Assembly (NCBI RefSeq): GCF_018860665.1
Contig: NZ_JAHKPK010000025.1
Location: 1-37,518 of the forward strand
Origin: Pacificibacter marinus
GTDB lineage: Bacteria > Pseudomonadota > Alphaproteobacteria > Rhodobacterales > Rhodobacteraceae
DNA length: 37,518 bases
Direction: 5' to 3'
Below the pieces are notes generated by a model. The model did not search any database. It was given only the letters and a program-made list of their open reading frames with translations, and was not told the origin of the DNA. Positions 1-6,017 of this stretch are shown piece by piece; the first letter of the stretch is position 1; each line of letters opens with the position of its first letter. The position numbers and the translations under genes are program-made.

Positions 1-658
1 CAGTCTGAGCGGACTGCCCCTCACCGGCCATGCGCGCTTGCCACCACCGCTTGAATTTGCGTGCCTCTGCGCCACCGACATCAACCACGTTCAGGTCCTC
101 GCCAAGAGCCGCAATCAAATTGTTGACAGACCGCAGGCGAGGCGAGCGCCACAAGCGCATTTGTTCGCTGTTTTTGAAGCGATTGTCATGGGCCGCAAGC
201 GTTTCGACATGGCCGACAAGGTCTGACAGCCGCAATTGCGGTGCCTCAACCACCCCCAACAGAGCCGATGCGATCACCTCGTCAGGCACTCCATCTGCAG
301 TCTGCGTCGCTTCAACGCGCCGCAAAACCTCATCCAACGGTGCCTGTGTAACGCTATCAATTGATAAAAATTGAAACCCACGCAGAGCTGCCAACTGTTG
401 CGCTGCGCGAAACTTTTCTGCCGCATCGCCATCCCGCCCAGCGAGACACGCTTCCCAGCCTTCGATATACGACAGCCAGACCCCAGCCATTTTTTGCACC
501 GCAACACCATAGGAATCGGTTTTGAGGCTATGCCAAACAACAGGCCGCGGCTCGACTGACGCATACCGTTTTGGGACACGTCGTTTTAAATACCAAATCG
601 TTCCACGCAGGACAGGTTTTGACAGACTGGCGCCCCCAACATTCGCTTTATGTAGCAA
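1..658 (-). CDS. Site-specific tyrosine integrase, N-terminal part (runs off the left edge)
   Basis: About 219 codons read without a stop from a TTG at 658 to the window edge. The start of the protein has the sequence TIWYLKRRVPKRYASVEPR, followed by VWHSLKTD. This is the usual opening of rhodobacteral prophage or island integrases (a DUF6538-like arm-binding domain). Next come a helical stretch and a SAM-like core-binding region (LSDLVGHVETLAAHDNRFKN, then KFKRWWQ). The catalytic domain would lie outside the window. The start is uncertain: the frame is open back to a TAA near 745, TTG at 670 and GTG at 706 are alternatives, and none has a clear ribosome-binding site. The gene points away from the tRNA-type attachment core at 760-773, as expected if it belongs to another element inserted at the same tRNA. 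Integrase identity is inferred from motif resemblance. Confidence 0.82.
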   Translation of the reverse strand, partial: MLHKANVGGASLSKPVLRGTIWYLKRRVPKRYASVEPRPVVWHSLKTDSYGVAVQKMAGVWLSYIEGWEACLAGRDGDAAEKFRAAQQLAALRGFQFLSIDSVTQAPLDEVLRRVEATQTADGVPDEVIASALLGVVEAPQLRLSDLVGHVETLAAHDNRFKNSEQMRLWRSPRLRSVNNLIAALGEDLNVVDVGGAEARKFKRWWQARMAGEGQSAQT

Positions 659-759
659 AATGGGGTGCAAATCAAGGGAGGTAAGATCGGCACCATCGAC
701 GACCACAGCGTTAAGCCATTGATTTCGCGCGAAAATAAAAAATTACGCGTGAAATATAA

Positions 760-773
760 TGGCGGAGGAACAG
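760..773. repeat. Left attachment core: displaced copy of tRNA-Ser 3' end
   Basis: The 14 bases TGGCGGAGGAACAG are identical to the last 14 bases of the tRNA-Ser(UGA) gene at 5928-5941, read on the plus strand and including the encoded CCA. A direct copy of a tRNA 3' end facing an integrase gene is the expected footprint of integrase-mediated insertion. Identity ends after base 773. Shortly downstream, GGTTTGAATCCCTA resembles a tRNA T-arm in the opposite orientation, which may be chance. Confidence 0.8.
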
Positions 774-882
774 TCCGCAGGTTTGAATCCCTATACATAC
801 CCAAAAGACCCCAAAACTGTTTATTTTCAAGGCATTTAGGCACCACATGGGCTTGTAAGGTCTCATGTATTCCCATAAAATA

Positions 883-902
883 TGTGGGGCAGAATGTGGG
901 GC
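883..902 (+). promoter_or_regulatory. Paired TGTGGGGC boxes, left end (probable integrase arm sites)
   Basis: TGTGGGGC occurs at 883-890 and again at 895-902, a 12-bp period. The same octamer pair with the same period and orientation lies at the other end of the element (5852-5871). The second box ends 4 bases before the preferred integrase start at 907, so its GGGG may also act as the ribosome-binding site. Integrase binding here could then repress its own expression. The site role is inferred from symmetry and position. Confidence 0.6.
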
Positions 903-906
903 TAAC

Positions 907-2112
907 ATGTCAGAAAACTCAATTCCTGAAGGCAAGAAAACCAAGAAACCGCTCACAGCGGCCTTTGTGCGCACTGTCAAAGAAGCGGGGCGATATGGGG
1001 ATGGAAACGGCTTAATTTTGAGAGTCGAACCCTCTGGCTCTAAACGCTGGATTCAGCGCATCGTCATTCGGGGCAAACGCACCGACATTGGCCTAGGGTC
1101 TGCATCCCTTGTGACGCTCGCACAGGCTCGCGAGCTTGCACACAACAATCGCAAACTGGCCCGCGCAGGTGGTGACCCGCTTGCAGTCAAGCGCAGAGCC
1201 AAAGCTGTCATGACCTTTGAAGAAGCTGCGCGCGAAGTCCACCGCATCAATTTGCCAACTTGGCGCAACGCCAAACACGGCGCGCAATTCATATCGACGC
1301 TGCAAACCTATGCTTTCCCCCGCCTTGGCTCTACGAAGGTGTCAGAAATCACCACCGCCGATGTACTGGCCGTGCTGCAACCCATTTGGTTGAAAAAACC
1401 TGAAACTGCGCGCCGCGTTCGTCAACGCATTGGGACCGTGCTTAAATGGGCCATAGCGCAAGGATGGCGACAAGATGATCCAACTTTGGTCATCACTCAA
1501 GCCCTGCCCAAACAGGACCGTACTGTTAAGCATCGCGTCTCAATGCCCTATGGTGACGTTGCCGCCTTTTTGGAGGTGATGAAAAACAGCGGCGCGGGAC
1601 GCACAACCAAGCTGGCCCTTGAGTTTCTAATCCTCACAGCCACCCGATCAGGTGAGACGCGCAACGCCGTTTGGTCTGAAATTGATTTGAACACTGCAAC
1701 GTGGACCATTCCCGCCCAGCGCATGAAAGCCAAGAAAGAACATCGCATTCCATTATCAAACCGTGCGCTTGAGATATTGGCAGAGGCAAAGGCACTCAAT
1801 GACGGGTCCGACCTGATCTTTGCAGGTACGCGCTATGGCAAACCTCTTTCCGACATGACGCTATCGAAATTGGTCAAAGAGAACGGCTTTGCCGCTGACA
1901 TTCATGGTTTCCGCACATCGTTCAAGACATGGACCCAAGAGCGCACGACCACCGCACGCGAAGTGTCAGAGGCCGCACTGGCCCACACCATCCAGAACAA
2001 AGCCGAAGCAGCCTATGCGCGGTCTGATCTATTTGAAAAGCGGCGCGGACTTATGGACCTCTGGCAGAATCACCTCTGTGCAAAAACGGCACAAATCCAT
2101 CAAATCGGATAA
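907..2112 (+). CDS. Tyrosine integrase, DUF4102/P4-like family
   Basis: The 401-aa protein has the family's usual length. Residues about 10-95 match the N-terminal DUF4102 arm-binding domain (the sequence GNGLILRVEPSGSKRW, then a GLGSASLVTLAQARE turn). A core-binding region follows to about 210, then the catalytic domain. The catalytic residues are visible: R247 in TATRSGE, H333 and R336 in HGFR, H360, and the nucleophile Y370 in AAYARSD. It would excise and integrate the 760-5941 element at tRNA-Ser. The frame is open back to an ATG at 865, but those extra 14 codons are mostly the translated TGTGGGGC repeats (CGAECGA), so the ATG at 907 is preferred. The gene is intact. Confidence 0.93.
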   Translation: MSENSIPEGKKTKKPLTAAFVRTVKEAGRYGDGNGLILRVEPSGSKRWIQRIVIRGKRTDIGLGSASLVTLAQARELAHNNRKLARAGGDPLAVKRRAKAVMTFEEAAREVHRINLPTWRNAKHGAQFISTLQTYAFPRLGSTKVSEITTADVLAVLQPIWLKKPETARRVRQRIGTVLKWAIAQGWRQDDPTLVITQALPKQDRTVKHRVSMPYGDVAAFLEVMKNSGAGRTTKLALEFLILTATRSGETRNAVWSEIDLNTATWTIPAQRMKAKKEHRIPLSNRALEILAEAKALNDGSDLIFAGTRYGKPLSDMTLSKLVKENGFAADIHGFRTSFKTWTQERTTTAREVSEAALAHTIQNKAEAAYARSDLFEKRRGLMDLWQNHLCAKTAQIHQIG

Positions 2113-2304
2113 TTCCTTTCCAGAAAACGCCATTTTAATGCCGAGTCTCCAAATTTTTTCTTAAAAAATCACTTCACATTTTTGCCGATAACAGTCGTGA
2201 CTTCCGACTTTGACGCAAACAGCTTTGTGACCAAGAGCGTTGATCAGTATTTTCGGATTAAAAGTGAGAGACTTAACTAAAAGGCCGAACACAAAAATGG
2301 CGAA

Positions 2305-2361
2305 TTACCGATATTAAAGAGACGTCAAAATACCGGTAAAATCCCTGCAACACATCGGTAA
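2305..2361. promoter_or_regulatory. Three CGGTAA-type repeats in the 537-bp control region
   Basis: The region between the integrase (ends 2112) and the AlpA-like gene (2650) is AT-rich and holds no convincing gene. It contains TTACCGAT (2305-2312, inverted), ACCGGTAA (2332-2339) and ATCGGTAA (2354-2361). The last two are 22 bp apart, about two helical turns. They could be operators for the AlpA-like or winged-helix proteins, or iterons of an excised replicating form. Function is inference only. Nothing else recognisable was found in 2113-2649. Confidence 0.35.
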
Positions 2362-2649
2362 AAACTCTCTACAAAACGTGCGTTAATGTCACAAAACATG
2401 TTTCAACTCAGAAGGTTAACTGCTGTGCCGCCGCACTTTTTTGCACTGAAGTACCCAACAACCCCTTTGCACTTTGTGGGACTGCAAGTACAGTTGTCAC
2501 AAGGCTTAAGACAGCCCCAGAAAGAGCACGGGCGCCGAGAATAATCCCAGCGTCCGCACAAATGGAAAAAACTTTCCCGAGTCAATTTCCATGTTCTTTC
2601 TAACATGCCGCAAGCAAAAAAAAAGCGGCAATATTTAGAAAGGTCTTTG

Positions 2650-2829
2650 ATGACTGAACATCTCTTGAGACGCTACGGCGTAGAGCAGATCACAGGCATG
2701 AGCAAAAGCGGGCTTTACCGCGCCATGTCTGAAGGCAACTTCCCCCGTCCCGTTAAAATCGGAAAACGAGCTGTAGCGTGGCGCGCAAGCGACATTGCGC
2801 TTTGGCTTGAATCCCGAACCACGACCTAG
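2650..2829 (+). CDS. AlpA-like transcriptional regulator
   Basis: This 59-aa protein is a compact MerR/excisionase-type helix-turn-helix: a GVEQITGMSKSGLYRAM helix pair, then FPRPVKIGKRAVAW and SDIALWL, the standard AlpA pattern. AlpA proteins activate or control integrase and excision genes of P4-like elements. The ATG at 2650 is chosen because AGAAAGG lies 6 bases upstream; an in-frame ATG at 2605 would add a lysine-rich tail without a clear site. It begins a run of five same-strand genes ending at 4326, all overlapping or closely spaced, so they are probably co-transcribed. Confidence 0.85.
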   Translation: MTEHLLRRYGVEQITGMSKSGLYRAMSEGNFPRPVKIGKRAVAWRASDIALWLESRTTT

Positions 2830-2842
2830 GGGATCAACCGAC

Positions 2843-3163
2843 ATGACAATTTTTGAACACACCGCTTGGGCGGAACGGCGGAGCTATGTCATCACCAATG
2901 CAGGCTGCGCCCCCTTCACAGTACAAGCCAAAGGCCGCACAGCGTGGCTTTTGGATATTTTACGGCTCACCAAAGGCAAAGGCGTCACCACGGCGGAACT
3001 CCCCGCTGGCATCCGCTTTTCGTCGGCGCTGCACCTCTTGCGCAAAAAGGGCGTGATGATCGAAACCGTCATGGAACCGCATGAGGGCAAATATGCAGGG
3101 AACCATGGACGCTATTTCTTGGTGAGCAAGGTTCACCCCGTGTTTGGGGAGGCTTCGCAATGA
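2843..3163 (+). CDS. Small winged-helix domain protein
   Basis: The protein has 106 aa. Residues about 30-100 read as a winged helix: WLLDILRLTKGKGVTTAELP, then SSALHLLRKKGVMIET, then a basic wing ending GNHGRYFLVSKV. Similar small winged-helix proteins are common in rhodobacteral islands, with no fixed function. The start is the ATG at 2843, after the AlpA stop. The frame extends back to 2795 only by overlapping alpA. It overlaps the next gene by 4 bases (ATGA). A role in regulating or copying the element is inferred from context. Confidence 0.7.
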   Translation: MTIFEHTAWAERRSYVITNAGCAPFTVQAKGRTAWLLDILRLTKGKGVTTAELPAGIRFSSALHLLRKKGVMIETVMEPHEGKYAGNHGRYFLVSKVHPVFGEASQ

Positions 3164-3429
3164 CTGTTATACCATCACATAAAGAAACGGGCGACCAATA
3201 CGCGCGCGTGGTAGCCCTTGGCGTAGTTACCCGCGTCATCGTTTGCCGTCACGACCAGCAATGGATCATCCAGCGCAAGAAAGGCGGGACACAACCGCGC
3301 TGGCTGTCTTTGGGGTACTGCTTATCCAAAGATACTGTTTTGCGACTGTGGGCGGGTCTAGGTGAAGCGCCTTGCCCTGCCCTTACCGCTTTACCTGATC
3401 GCAAGAAGGGGCCGAACCATGGGGCGTAA
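3160..3429 (+). CDS. Hypothetical protein of the island
   Basis: The 89-aa protein is not recognised. It has a beta-rich N-terminal half (ARVVALGVVTRVIVCRHDQQW), then a basic segment with QRKKGG and a PRWLSLGYC stretch. It starts with ATG overlapping the previous stop by 4 bases, and its end overlaps the next gene, so it is embedded in a translationally coupled run. This tight packing, rather than any domain, is the reason to call it real. Confidence 0.6.
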   Translation: MTVIPSHKETGDQYARVVALGVVTRVIVCRHDQQWIIQRKKGGTQPRWLSLGYCLSKDTVLRLWAGLGEAPCPALTALPDRKKGPNHGA

Positions 3430-3955
3430 ACCGTACAAGCACGGCAAGCGGCGCAACAAGGAGCGCTTCCTAATGCTCTATGAGTGGATGACAGAAAGCC
3501 CAGCATGGCGGGATATGTCGCCCACGGCGCGCAGTCTCTACTGTGAAATGAAAACACGCTTCAACGGCTCCAACAATGGCAAGATAACTTTGAGCCACCG
3601 CGAAGCCGCTGAGCGCCTCAATCTCAACCGCAACACGATGGGGCGTTACTTTGCAGAGCTTGAAGAACACCAGTTCATTCGCGCAGCCCAGAGGCATCAC
3701 CTTGGACCAAGCGGCGTAGGGCAAACAACCCGATGGATTTTAGAAGAAGAAGAACTGCACGGGCAAAAAGCAACAAAGGCGTTCATGTCTTGGAGGAAAG
3801 GTTTTCCTGAAGCCACGAAACAAAAGCCCCGCCCAAAACCCAAGCCACCGCGTCCTAGAATAGAGGACACAGCACCTCCCAACGCCTCACCGCATTGCCC
3901 AGCCGTCATAGAATTCGGGACGTATCTGGCAAAACCCAGAAAGGCGGCGTCATGA
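3419..3955 (+). CDS. Helix-turn-helix protein, possible replication-type factor
   Basis: The protein has 178 aa. A basic N-terminus (MGRKPYKHGKRRNKERF) leads into a winged-helix-like domain at about 20-100: SPAWRDMSPTARSLYCEM, then ITLSHREAAERLNLNRNTM and FAELEEHQFI. The same layout is found in plasmid and phage replication or partition regulators. A proline/lysine-rich linker (PRPKPKPPRPRI, about 136-148) follows. The ATG at 3419 overlaps the previous gene; the longer frame from 3362 lies entirely inside that gene and is rejected. The stop overlaps the next start (ATGA). Confidence 0.65.
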   Translation: MGRKPYKHGKRRNKERFLMLYEWMTESPAWRDMSPTARSLYCEMKTRFNGSNNGKITLSHREAAERLNLNRNTMGRYFAELEEHQFIRAAQRHHLGPSGVGQTTRWILEEEELHGQKATKAFMSWRKGFPEATKQKPRPKPKPPRPRIEDTAPPNASPHCPAVIEFGTYLAKPRKAAS

Positions 3956-4326
3956 TATTTGGGACAGTATCAGAATACACCATAGGGGCTGTGTCACCAT
4001 TGCAGATGTTTTGGTTTGCAGACGTTTGCCTGCCAAACTTTAGCTGGGCAATCTGGGCAGCTTACGGGTTTGGTCATATTGCGCTGGGCGTAGGCATCAA
4101 GTGGATTGGCTTTTTCAAGGGATGGTGGCTGTTCCTTTGGGCCGCATCCCGCGCCCTGATCGCCAAAGAGATATTGCTGGATCAACACACCTGCGCTGAT
4201 CCCGCTATACCGATTTGGTTAGACAGCATCGCAGACATGGGGTTCGTATTTTTGGGCTTTGCTGTGGCGAGTTACCTTTGGGGAATCTTAGGCTGGCGAC
4301 ACCCGAACACTGACCTCAAACCTTAA
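3952..4326 (+). CDS. Small membrane protein of unknown function
   Basis: The 124-aa protein has about three hydrophobic segments: around residues 20-50 (ending GFGHIALGVGIKWIGFF), 53-70 (WWLFLWAASRALIA) and 90-115 (DSIADMGFVFLGFAVASYLW). It has no recognised domain. The ATG at 3952 shares bases with the stop of the previous gene, so translation is probably coupled. It is the last gene of the run and is followed by a strong hairpin. In satellites and defence islands such small membrane proteins are sometimes effectors or superinfection factors; nothing in the sequence proves this here. Confidence 0.65.
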   Translation: MIFGTVSEYTIGAVSPLQMFWFADVCLPNFSWAIWAAYGFGHIALGVGIKWIGFFKGWWLFLWAASRALIAKEILLDQHTCADPAIPIWLDSIADMGFVFLGFAVASYLWGILGWRHPNTDLKP

Positions 4327-4339
4327 CATTTCTCAACAT

Positions 4340-4367
4340 GCTGGGCGGGGAACTAAAACCGCCCAGC
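4340..4367. terminator. Bidirectional terminator between convergent island genes
   Basis: GCTGGGCGG (4340-4348) and CCGCCCAGC (4359-4367) form a perfect 9-bp stem with a 10-base loop, between the plus-strand membrane protein and the minus-strand nuclease-like gene. The flanks are A/T-rich on both sides without a long uninterrupted T-run. Confidence 0.7.
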
Positions 4368-4398
4368 TTGCAAAAACTTATTAAAAAGCTGGGAAAGC

Positions 4399-5757
4399 CT
4401 ATGGCTCAAAGCCCTCAGAATCTTCTTCTAAAGCCTCGGTAGAAACATCTTCGCTATCATCGCGCCCTTGTTTGATCTGAGGAGCCTTGCGTTGCCAAGC
4501 AGAAATGTTTGAACCGAAGTCGCCATAAAACTTAGGAACCAAAACTTCCAACTCAGCGATAAAGTTAGTTTGCTGGGTAAATTTGGCCCCAAGCCGTTCA
4601 GACACAAAGAGATGAAAGCCATGGGGAACAAGGTGTTCTTTGCCCTCACTTGCCAAGTCGGGGTCATTGCGCAAGTCTTGAAATGCGTGCTGTGTTGCCT
4701 CGCTTGCACCGGGCCAAAGCAGTCGCAAAAACAAACCGTCAACACTTTCAGCTTTGACTTGGCGCAACAACCAATTCACTCGCGCCTTTGTGGTTTTTTT
4801 ATCTTCAGGCGCGCGCAAGGTCATCCCAACGTCGATACTACGGCGCGGAATGTCAGCGACAACATCAATTGTTGCAGCGGCATCAGGCACGCTCAGCGAA
4901 CACTTCAAGCAATGAGCATCGCGCAAATCTTGCAATTCGTCCTTTTGACGATTGGCAGGGTCAGCGGCGTGTTTTCGTGGAAGGCGCTCAGACACATTCG
5001 CCCCCGTCATACGGCTTAAAATAAGCGATAGGTCACGCGTTTCTTGATGCCACGCCTGCAAAACAGGCAGAACCAAAGGTGAGCGTGCTGGAATGCTACC
5101 TCCACTTGAAACGAGTTTATTCAACTCTGCCCATTCGCGCGGCATTCTATCAAAGCCCTTAACCCCCGCGCTTTCGTGGGTTAGAAATCTTCGCAATTCA
5201 TTCAGCAATATTTTCTGATCGGTATCTGCAACCCCCTCGCTAGACAAAAGCAAATCTGCAATCGTCAAAATATGCATCCATGACCAGTGATAAACTGGTA
5301 TTTTCGAGCGGCTTTTTCGAACATCATCTAGCGGGTGAACCATTGGGCTAGTGGCGAACTGATTTGAAATAGAAATCACACAATCCGCGCCGTTCTCTTT
5401 TGCCAAGGCACGATATCGCTCTAATTGGCTTGCATCCAAATCATTGTTGCCGACCTTCGCTTCGATCAAGGCCACCCATTCACGACTGCCTGTCTTTAGG
5501 GTTATCAATCCATCTGGGCGGTCATTGACTGACCCACTTTGTTTTTCAAAACAAACTTCGGTGTATGTTGCGACCTTAGTCCTCTTCCCAAGCTTTTGCC
5601 CAACACTAGACAGCAATTCTGAGCCAAACTCTTCGACCTTAGATACACAGGCCAACACAATAGACGTTGTTCGCCCTTCTTTTGATGTCGTCGAGAGAAC
5701 GGGAAACAGGCGCGCCGCTTCACCTTGCTTAAGATACTCAGGTAATTGTTCGGACAT
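4399..5757 (-). CDS. PD-(D/E)XK nuclease-like protein, island cargo
   Basis: The protein has 452 aa and no named family that I can assign. The N-terminal 140 residues carry a PD-(D/E)XK pattern: E67 (TYTEV), D82 (RPDGLI), E99-A-K101 (ALIEAK) and a downstream Q111LERY, like the QxxxY motif of RecB-type nucleases. The remaining 300 residues have no obvious motif, include a short beta-rich module around 290-330, and end in an acidic tail (DDSEDVSTEALEEDSEGFE). ATG at 5757 follows GAGGTGGGG. It is the only gene on this strand in the element, lies at the tRNA end and does not overlap the replication-like run, which is the usual cargo position in small integrative elements. Nuclease activity and a defence role are inference. 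Confidence 0.8.
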   Translation of the reverse strand: MSEQLPEYLKQGEAARLFPVLSTTSKEGRTTSIVLACVSKVEEFGSELLSSVGQKLGKRTKVATYTEVCFEKQSGSVNDRPDGLITLKTGSREWVALIEAKVGNNDLDASQLERYRALAKENGADCVISISNQFATSPMVHPLDDVRKSRSKIPVYHWSWMHILTIADLLLSSEGVADTDQKILLNELRRFLTHESAGVKGFDRMPREWAELNKLVSSGGSIPARSPLVLPVLQAWHQETRDLSLILSRMTGANVSERLPRKHAADPANRQKDELQDLRDAHCLKCSLSVPDAAATIDVVADIPRRSIDVGMTLRAPEDKKTTKARVNWLLRQVKAESVDGLFLRLLWPGASEATQHAFQDLRNDPDLASEGKEHLVPHGFHLFVSERLGAKFTQQTNFIAELEVLVPKFYGDFGSNISAWQRKAPQIKQGRDDSEDVSTEALEEDSEGFEP

Positions 5758-5851
5758 GTCCCCACCTCAAAAATTATTAAAATACTGAGGTATGAAAGCC
5801 CAATGCAGAACCCTACGTCAACAATAAGAGAGGCGATGACTATGATTTAGC

Positions 5852-5871
5852 TGTGGGGCAATATGTGGGGC
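5852..5871 (+). promoter_or_regulatory. Paired TGTGGGGC boxes, right end (probable integrase arm sites)
   Basis: TGTGGGGC at 5852-5859 and 5864-5871 repeats the left-end pair exactly, with the same octamer, 12-bp period and strand. It lies 57 bp inside the right attachment core. Two identical pairs at opposite ends of one element are unlikely by chance. Integrase arm-type sites are the simplest explanation. Confidence 0.6.
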
Positions 5872-5927
5872 AAAAAACGACACACCTACCCTAAATATTT
5901 GATTTAATGCAAAAATTTAGGGTGATG

Positions 5928-5941
5928 TGGCGGAGGAACAG
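5928..5941. repeat. Right attachment core within tRNA-Ser 3' end
   Basis: These 14 bases are the 3' end of the intact tRNA-Ser gene and equal 760-773. Insertion kept the tRNA functional, because the element supplies or preserves the same bases including the CCA. Confidence 0.8.
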
Positions 5942-6017
5942 GGATTCGAACCCTGGGAGGACTTTCACCCTCGTCGGTTTTCAAGACCGGTGCATTCGAC
6001 CACTCTGCCACTCCTCC
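5928..6017 (-). tRNA. tRNA-Ser (anticodon UGA)
   Basis: Read on the minus strand, the gene begins GGAGGAGTGGCAGAGTGG and ends TTCCTCC-G-CCA, giving a 7-bp acceptor stem with one G-U pair. The anticodon loop CTTGAAA carries TGA. A long variable arm (GAGGGTGAAAGTCCTC) marks a type II tRNA, as expected for serine. The T-loop GGTTCGAATCC is standard. The gene is 90 nt with CCA encoded. It reads UCA (and, by wobble, UCG) codons and is the insertion target of the adjacent element. Confidence 0.97.

Follow-up and report, generated by a model that had tools for sequence, protein, structure and literature searches.

The window analysed here is a 37,518-nucleotide stretch of DNA from Pacificibacter marinus (contig NZ_JAHKPK010000025.1, forward strand), and its subject is a compact integrated element at positions 760-5941 (5,182 bp), flanked on either side by the same 14 bp from the 3' end of a tRNA-Ser(UGA) gene. 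The sequence TGGCGGAGGAACAG is present identically at 760-773 and 5928-5941, as an earlier description made from the letters alone (the sequence-only reading) had claimed; the right copy is the tRNA 3' end itself, because tRNA-Ser(UGA) occupies 5928-6017 on the minus strand. Between the copies lie an intact integrase gene, an AlpA gene, four overlapping small genes and one cargo gene, a content listed in the same reading and borne out by Pfam domains and by overlaps of 4, 11 and 4 nt between consecutive small genes. The features of the element are as follows.

760..773: left attachment (att) core, a copy of the tRNA-Ser 3' end.
883..902, plus strand: left putative integrase-arm pair, TGTGGGGC twice with a 12-bp period, some 110 bp inward from the core.
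907..2112, plus strand: tyrosine integrase (int), 401 aa, with the Pfam domains Arm-DNA-bind_3, Phage_int_M and Phage_integrase.
2113..2649: gap between int and alpA, the slot often filled by a variable, int-overlapping gene in relatives, with no called gene in the window element.
2650..2829, plus strand: AlpA regulator/excisionase, 59 aa (PF05930, E 1.2e-18).
2843..3163, plus strand: HTH_91 winged-helix protein, 106 aa (Pfam; phrog_25676).
3160..3429, plus strand: conserved small protein of 89 aa (p89), no Pfam match (phrog_22090, E 2.8e-5).
3419..3955, plus strand: winged helix-turn-helix (wHTH) replication-initiator-like protein (rep), 178 aa, the family marker, with Pfam matches below the cut-off only.
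3952..4326, plus strand: hydrophobic protein of 124 aa, no Pfam match and no convincing relative in the family.
4399..5757, minus strand: cargo, a putative PD-(D/E)XK-like nuclease of 452 aa (VRR_NUC below the Pfam cut-off).
5852..5871, plus strand: right putative integrase-arm pair, TGTGGGGC twice with a 12-bp period, some 75 bp short of the core.
5888..5923: inverted repeat adjoining the tRNA 3' end, terminator-like and presumably acting as such.
5928..5941: right att core, within the tRNA gene.
5928..6017, minus strand: tRNA-Ser(UGA), the target gene.

The seven proteins of the element were scanned against Pfam, PHROGs, PADLOC and NCBIfam. The PDB sequence matches of the integrase include a CP4-like integrase. 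The PHROG matches of the 178-aa wHTH protein are DnaD-like helicase loaders (E 1.5e-6) and replication initiators, and it may be an initiator of the RepA_N or DnaD-like kind, which has a winged-helix N-terminal domain. The 124-aa protein had been described as a three-helix membrane protein; because a 19-residue hydropathy scan exceeds 1.4 in the single region of residues 85-116, this is borne out for one hydrophobic region but not for three helices. The same protein was rejected as a conserved partner of the nuclease, its sole match (in locus L091) being weak and 29 residues long. No phage structural family (Pfam, PHROGs) and no relaxase (Pfam, NCBIfam) was found among the seven proteins, as expected from the earlier statement that structural and transfer genes are lacking. 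With no structural family present, we also reject a remnant of a larger prophage, an outcome that had been named as telling against a compact element. PADLOC gave nothing under E 3e-4, and in NCBIfam the only matches were to integrase models, under the respective cut-offs, and others at chance level. The int-alpA gap holds no trace of a decayed int-overlapping gene below E 0.011, and neither convincing iteron-like repeats within the element nor any DNA similarity between it and phages was found.

The paired TGTGGGGC repeats are the same in sequence, spacing and orientation at 883-902 and 5852-5871, as noted earlier, and they occur nowhere else: TGTGGGGC-N4-TGTGGGGC is found exactly twice in the 3.89-Mb genome assembly, and its reversed control not at all. 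The 4-base spacers within the two pairs are unlike each other (AGAA and AATA). We surveyed 46 elements, namely the window element and 45 relatives in which a tRNA end is repeated (described below), for direct pairs of G-rich 6-mers with at most one mismatch, comparing periods from 7 to 18. A G-rich pair with a 12-bp period is present at the left end of 45, at the right end of 44 and at both ends of 43 of the 46 elements, whereas the other spacings gave pairs at both ends in at most 5 (7 at the left and 13 at the right, with maxima at 10, 11 and 13). An exact 7-mer common to both ends occurs in 15 of the 46, always with a spacing of 12, and dinucleotide shuffles gave none in 100 rounds; in these 15 elements the distance to the core is 110-129 bp for the left pair, inside it, and 64-77 bp for the right pair, ahead of it. 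Arm words vary among elements, but those at the two ends of a given element agree (with a mean mismatch of 0.74, against 1.89 to others), an agreement reached by 0 of 2000 permutations. A chance origin of the end repeats was rejected on the genome-wide count, the shuffles and the comparison of spacings. The symmetry stressed in the sequence-only reading is therefore real but not peculiar to this element, and the most plausible reading of the paired TGTGGGGC repeats is as integrase-arm sites within a conserved phage-type attachment site (attP), the 12-bp pairs probably being bound by the N-terminal arm domain of the integrase, to judge from the family. Where element ends lie beside a tRNA (window 5888-5923; by eye also G249, C14 and C6), they carry AT-rich inverted repeats that differ from one another, as if each element brought its own terminator.

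Among 248 genomes of the same family, its own included, the 178-aa protein is present in 31 and the winged-helix protein in 25. In named genomes a profile scan found 75 loci, of which 69 have titles of Rhodobacterales or of genera belonging to that order; the other six are from Phyllobacterium, Mesorhizobium, Filomicrobium, Devosia, a Flavobacteriia metagenome-assembled genome and an unplaced alphaproteobacterium. Together with 40 stretches chosen from the above matches of the 178-aa and winged-helix proteins, and after deduplication and removal of stretches without hits, these left 103 loci (the window excluded), in which genes were called by a simple codon-usage script rather than by a standard gene finder. 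An integrase lies upstream in 84, AlpA is present in 55 and the winged helix in 36, and because the loci were chosen for holding one of these proteins the counts should not be taken as natural frequencies. In 45 of the 103 a tRNA end is repeated over at least 12 bp, giving element sizes of 3.8-12.9 kb at genes for tRNA-Leu (16), tRNA-Ser (16), tRNA-Thr (7), tRNA-Phe (2), tRNA-Arg (2), tRNA-Ala and tRNA-Glu; no such repeat was found in the other 58, some of which are cut by contig ends. The order int-alpA-winged helix-p89-rep is conserved in loci with tRNA-end repeats, not every gene being present in each.

No sign of circularity, in the form of exact end overlaps of 15-399 nt, was seen in the 10 whole-contig loci (two of them possibly the same contig), and IMG/VR scans with rep, winged helix and p89 yielded no mini-element. 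On a 42-kb IMG/VR phage contig (L142:10007-11934), a relative of the 178-aa protein stands directly beside an integrase, some kilobases from an endolysin gene. The window element belongs to a large family of very small elements that is apparently undescribed. Its gene set, which could not be matched to a described satellite in the sequence-only reading, proves to be the backbone common to this family, most of whose members are in Rhodobacterales. Among the titles and abstract beginnings listed in searches of the open literature, from which subscription journals are mostly missing, none names a Rhodobacterales satellite family, so that novelty is unproven; by term counts, the main text of a study of Rhodobacteraceae prophages mentions neither satellites nor AlpA.

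A called gene lies between int and the backbone in 29 of the 46 elements, in 17 sequence groups; among these 29, the gene of L183 is 1.1 kb away and possibly the winged helix, and that of L111 is transposase-like by eye. In 13 of the 46 elements the gene that follows int overlaps its stop codon by 1, 4 or 8 nt. Downstream of AlpA, the 178-aa protein is found in 74 of 84 loci, Toprim+DUF3987 in 7, neither in 3 and both in none, a split in which the rep loci were mostly found through rep itself; for winged-helix loci only (n = 36) the corresponding numbers are 26, 7, 3 and 0. Two elements of one genome (L092 and L099, G141), with distant integrases, have in common 1.28 kb at 87% DNA identity, consisting of the winged-helix end, p89 and rep. 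Given this common block and the mutual exclusion of rep and primase, element interiors appear to have been exchanged as blocks.

Four IMG/VR contigs matched the window integrase at 56-62% identity. L248 and L249, which are nearly the same, have int with an abutting gene of 298 aa, alpA, an AAA protein, portal, protease-capsid, HNH, terS and terL. In L246, int and alpA are accompanied by a primase, by DNA that matches the head block of L248/L249 and by a terL at 55%. PHROGs also recognised connectors, a tape measure and tail proteins in these capsid-bearing relatives; no tail-tip or lysis family was found among 20 scanned proteins, which are part of their open reading frames and include 6 without any match. 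The integrase tree, midpoint-rooted and with a long-branch warning, includes 79 of the 84 integrases of the loci, after removal of sequences that contain stops or are shorter than 330 aa. In it the two capsid-bearing IMG/VR elements fall inside the 26-row clade of the window integrase (98/97), and the pair stands with a 4.0-kb mini-element in one 4-row set (99/94). Another, distinct clade holds 13 of the 83 integrases of the tree; in its loci with a listed tRNA (L109, L113, L118 and L127) the tRNA lies just upstream of int, an arrangement outside the coverage of our repeat search.

Contigs G504 and G505 represent the same element (99.3% identity over 7.8 kb, 100% over 6.5 kb), but terL is placed differently, downstream of int on one contig and upstream on the other. 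G505 contains a joined attP, in which the right pair lies 76 bp before and the left pair 121 bp after the core TGGCGGAGAGACAG, and a near-identical contig (99%) shows the left end unjoined. This core, of tRNA-Ser type, is also used by the mini-element L090 at tRNA-Ser(CGA). Between the ends of G505, 283 bp are uncovered, which puts the circle or repeat unit at about 18.0 kb; IMG/VR classes both G504 and G505 as linear. The geometry deduced from integrated mini-elements is therefore seen in an excised or concatemeric relative. G504, G505 and G506 (L246, L248, L249, L253 and L254) have in common the integrase clade, AlpA, and head, terminase and partial tail genes.

Homologues of the 452-aa cargo occur in 16 of 240 genomes of the same class, its own included. 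Residues E27, D82, E99-x-K101, Q111 and Y115 are invariant in all 15 aligned sequences and by inspection fit the PD-(D/E)XK pattern, and the protein is a likely nuclease. Its structure model is confident, with a mean predicted local distance difference test score of 88.5, but its PDB matches, which include the restriction enzymes PaqCI and BamHI, are weak (none under E 0.001). At tRNA-Ser(GGA) in G163 a 7.3-kb family element has this cargo at 70% identity, and distant relatives (<60%) are on 11 actinobacterial plasmids. At 10 loci inspected by eye the homologues are apparently single genes among host genes, bar one that adjoins a GTA-type tail gene. At L167:5234-10291 a homologue adjoins, in opposite orientation, a tail gene of the GTA_TIM/Rcc01698 type. 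The relatives contain 72 cargo genes of at least 120 aa; 62 were scanned, the other 10 being from primase-type elements and mostly the primase modules themselves. Against PADLOC, the 62 proteins gave mads_2 (3), type IIG restriction (2), DrmMI (2) and reverse transcriptase/protease (1), and no capsid or terminase is among their first 25 Pfam or PHROG families (of 42 Pfam and 37 PHROG families in total). Defence is the likely role of the cargo.

The left neighbour of the element is not plain chromosome; it is the start of another integrase-like gene, which had escaped the first description.

1..625, minus strand: neighbouring element B, a second integrase-like gene (DUF6538, E 6e-7) of which the contig end leaves the N-terminal part.

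In G262 and G264 the gene has full-length relatives that are tyrosine recombinase-like by eye; a PDB sequence search neither supports nor refutes a second integrase. Element B has its own arm-like repeats (by eye), and the two elements are a tandem at a tRNA hot spot. Window 1-625 and G000:C14:1-696 are near copies (96%) of the start of the second integrase-like gene that lie beside different tRNA-Ser genes (UGA and GGA), both at contig ends; the C14 copy is, by eye, frame-broken in this assembly. In G262 a full-length relative of the B gene, and in G249 a 258-bp match to its start, lie 100-150 bp from tRNA-Ser(UGA) with no window element between, an arrangement that we read as the form of the site without the window element. 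At tRNA-Ser(UGA) the right 12-bp arm pair is present in 8 of 20 picked genomes, its own included, compared with 2.2% (87 of 4000) of windows drawn at random from those loci; one of the eight, G256, has no second core and no integrase in the stretch examined. Among 20 genus genomes the window integrase is found at 100% in its own genome only, and the other 19 reach at most 46% (threshold E 1e-60). Fixation of the same genes in all relatives without att duplication, which had been put forward as a contrary outcome, was accordingly not found. A possible relic site at G000:C6:78110-78177 (L081) is 68 bp long, 91% identical to window 711-778 and contains an att-like core; no tRNA gene lies in the 16 kb examined there, and otherwise there is no DNA match to the first 6.6 kb of the window.

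The claim of a compact, att-bounded tRNA-Ser element with a satellite-like layout is supported by these results. In our judgement, which we hold with moderate confidence, the window element is a minimal, non-autonomous, AlpA-controlled integrative element and most likely a phage satellite, for which we infer a helper phage and packaging. Phage infection would cause AlpA to be made, Int and AlpA would excise a circle, and the wHTH initiator would start replication. The helper phage would then package the DNA, perhaps as concatemers, as in the phage-inducible chromosomal minimalist islands (PICMIs), and the nuclease may protect the host or the satellite against other phages.

An integrative mobilizable element would instead couple its own Int/AlpA excision to the conjugation machinery of a co-resident plasmid or integrative and conjugative element, using a short origin of transfer. 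Such elements share the overall arrangement of int, a regulator, a small replication-like gene, cargo and a tRNA site, the window element contains no phage packaging gene, and origins of transfer are beyond detection here. However, no relaxase is encoded, the integrase clade is common to elements with head and terminase genes, and the int-overlapping slot and the exchange with a DUF3987 module resemble PICMIs; mobilization seems an unlikely explanation. That the int-overlapping slot is without a gene, and that the element is buried in a tandem because its left neighbour is another element, would suit an immobile islet, an old satellite-derived island retained for its nuclease after loss of excision. 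We consider this rather improbable, since the integrase, AlpA, the four overlapping genes, both cores and both arm pairs are all intact, no integrase above 46% identity occurs in the other 19 genus genomes and the site varies between relatives.

Gene transfer agents (GTAs) carry a payload of about 4 kb, and elements of about that length might be packed whole in the GTA particles of their host and then integrated by Int. Eleven of the 45 family elements measure 3.8-4.42 kb. Moreover, Phage_capsid (PF05065), the one family sought as a mark of a helper prophage in the element's own genome, has its only match there on contig C14, 7 kb from a GTA_TIM gene. But the window element is 5.2 kb long, 34 of the 45 elements exceed 4.42 kb and 3.8 kb may be mere backbone length, and hitchhiking in GTA particles seems very doubtful.

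The phage-satellite reading can tentatively be extended to the whole family, which may be an undescribed class of phage satellite in its own right, found mostly in Rhodobacterales and built on a chassis of integrase, AlpA and attP with fixed 12-bp arms, interchangeable interiors and two cargo slots, one coupled to int and one beside the tRNA. Its interiors would be a lone wHTH initiator (in the smallest elements, the shortest being 3.8 kb), a Toprim/DUF3987 primase module or a block of head and packaging genes. If this is true, the same chassis also drives capsid-bearing elements, and the family is a source of many candidate defence genes beside tRNAs. The fixed arm-pair geometry provides a sequence signature for element ends and occupied sites without recourse to gene content.

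The window element has the marks of a tRNA-integrating element: a core repeat at a tRNA 3' end, an integrase and a site that varies between relatives. P4-like satellites are distinguished by an alpha primase and psu/sid/delta-type genes, cfPICI-like satellites by capsid, portal and terminase genes of their own, and tycheposons and virion-encapsidated integrative mobile elements (VEIMEs) by other replication genes than those of the window element. None of the seven proteins of the window element belongs to the alpha primase or psu/sid/delta families, and P4-like membership is rejected; the P4-like layout recognised in the sequence-only reading stands for the integrase and AlpA but not for the gene content. 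P4-like satellites likewise have an integrase of the CP4/P4 kind and AlpA (PMC8628076). Capsid, portal and terminase genes are absent from the window element, whereas the ~18-kb L248/L249 and L246, which have its integrase clade and alpA, carry portal, protease-capsid and terminase like capsid-forming satellites of the cfPICI type (named in PMC11389934) and, unlike these, also encode tail proteins. Tycheposons and VEIMEs, both named in PMC11389934, are likewise marine, satellite-like and integrative, in other hosts. Islands of the I55 type in transfer-messenger RNA genes, moved by a jumbo phage, also combine a tyrosine integrase with AlpA, have 14-bp repeats where an RNA gene ends, carry defence cargo and lack transfer genes, but they are larger, belong to Pseudomonas and have other core genes, RadC and YqaJ (PMC12595487).

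PICMIs of the Vibrionaceae are the nearest described system (PMC10803314). Like the window element they are small (~6 kb), with int, alpA, a few small genes and no capsid-remodelling or packaging genes. In PICMIs a variable gene (iolg or icg, in 13 families) overlaps the int stop by 1, 4 or 13 nt, much as in the family described here (1, 4 or 8 nt), and that of PICMI115 is needed for excision; PICMI115 also has a defence system, according to a section title, and the authors of the PICMI study report no complete PICMI outside Vibrio (PMC10803314). The window element shares with PICMIs the tyrosine integrase and the AlpA regulator but lacks a DUF3987/DUF5906 primase and is integrated at tRNA-Ser(UGA), not at fis. 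DUF3987, the family of the PICMI primase model, occurs in some of its relatives (7 of 84 loci), whereas the window element and most relatives, in other hosts, have a wHTH initiator-like gene in place of the primase. The architecture is thus PICMI-like, with two of the features that define PICMIs replaced, and if the element is indeed a satellite, minimal satellites of the PICMI type would not be confined to Vibrio and would have a large counterpart in Rhodobacterales.

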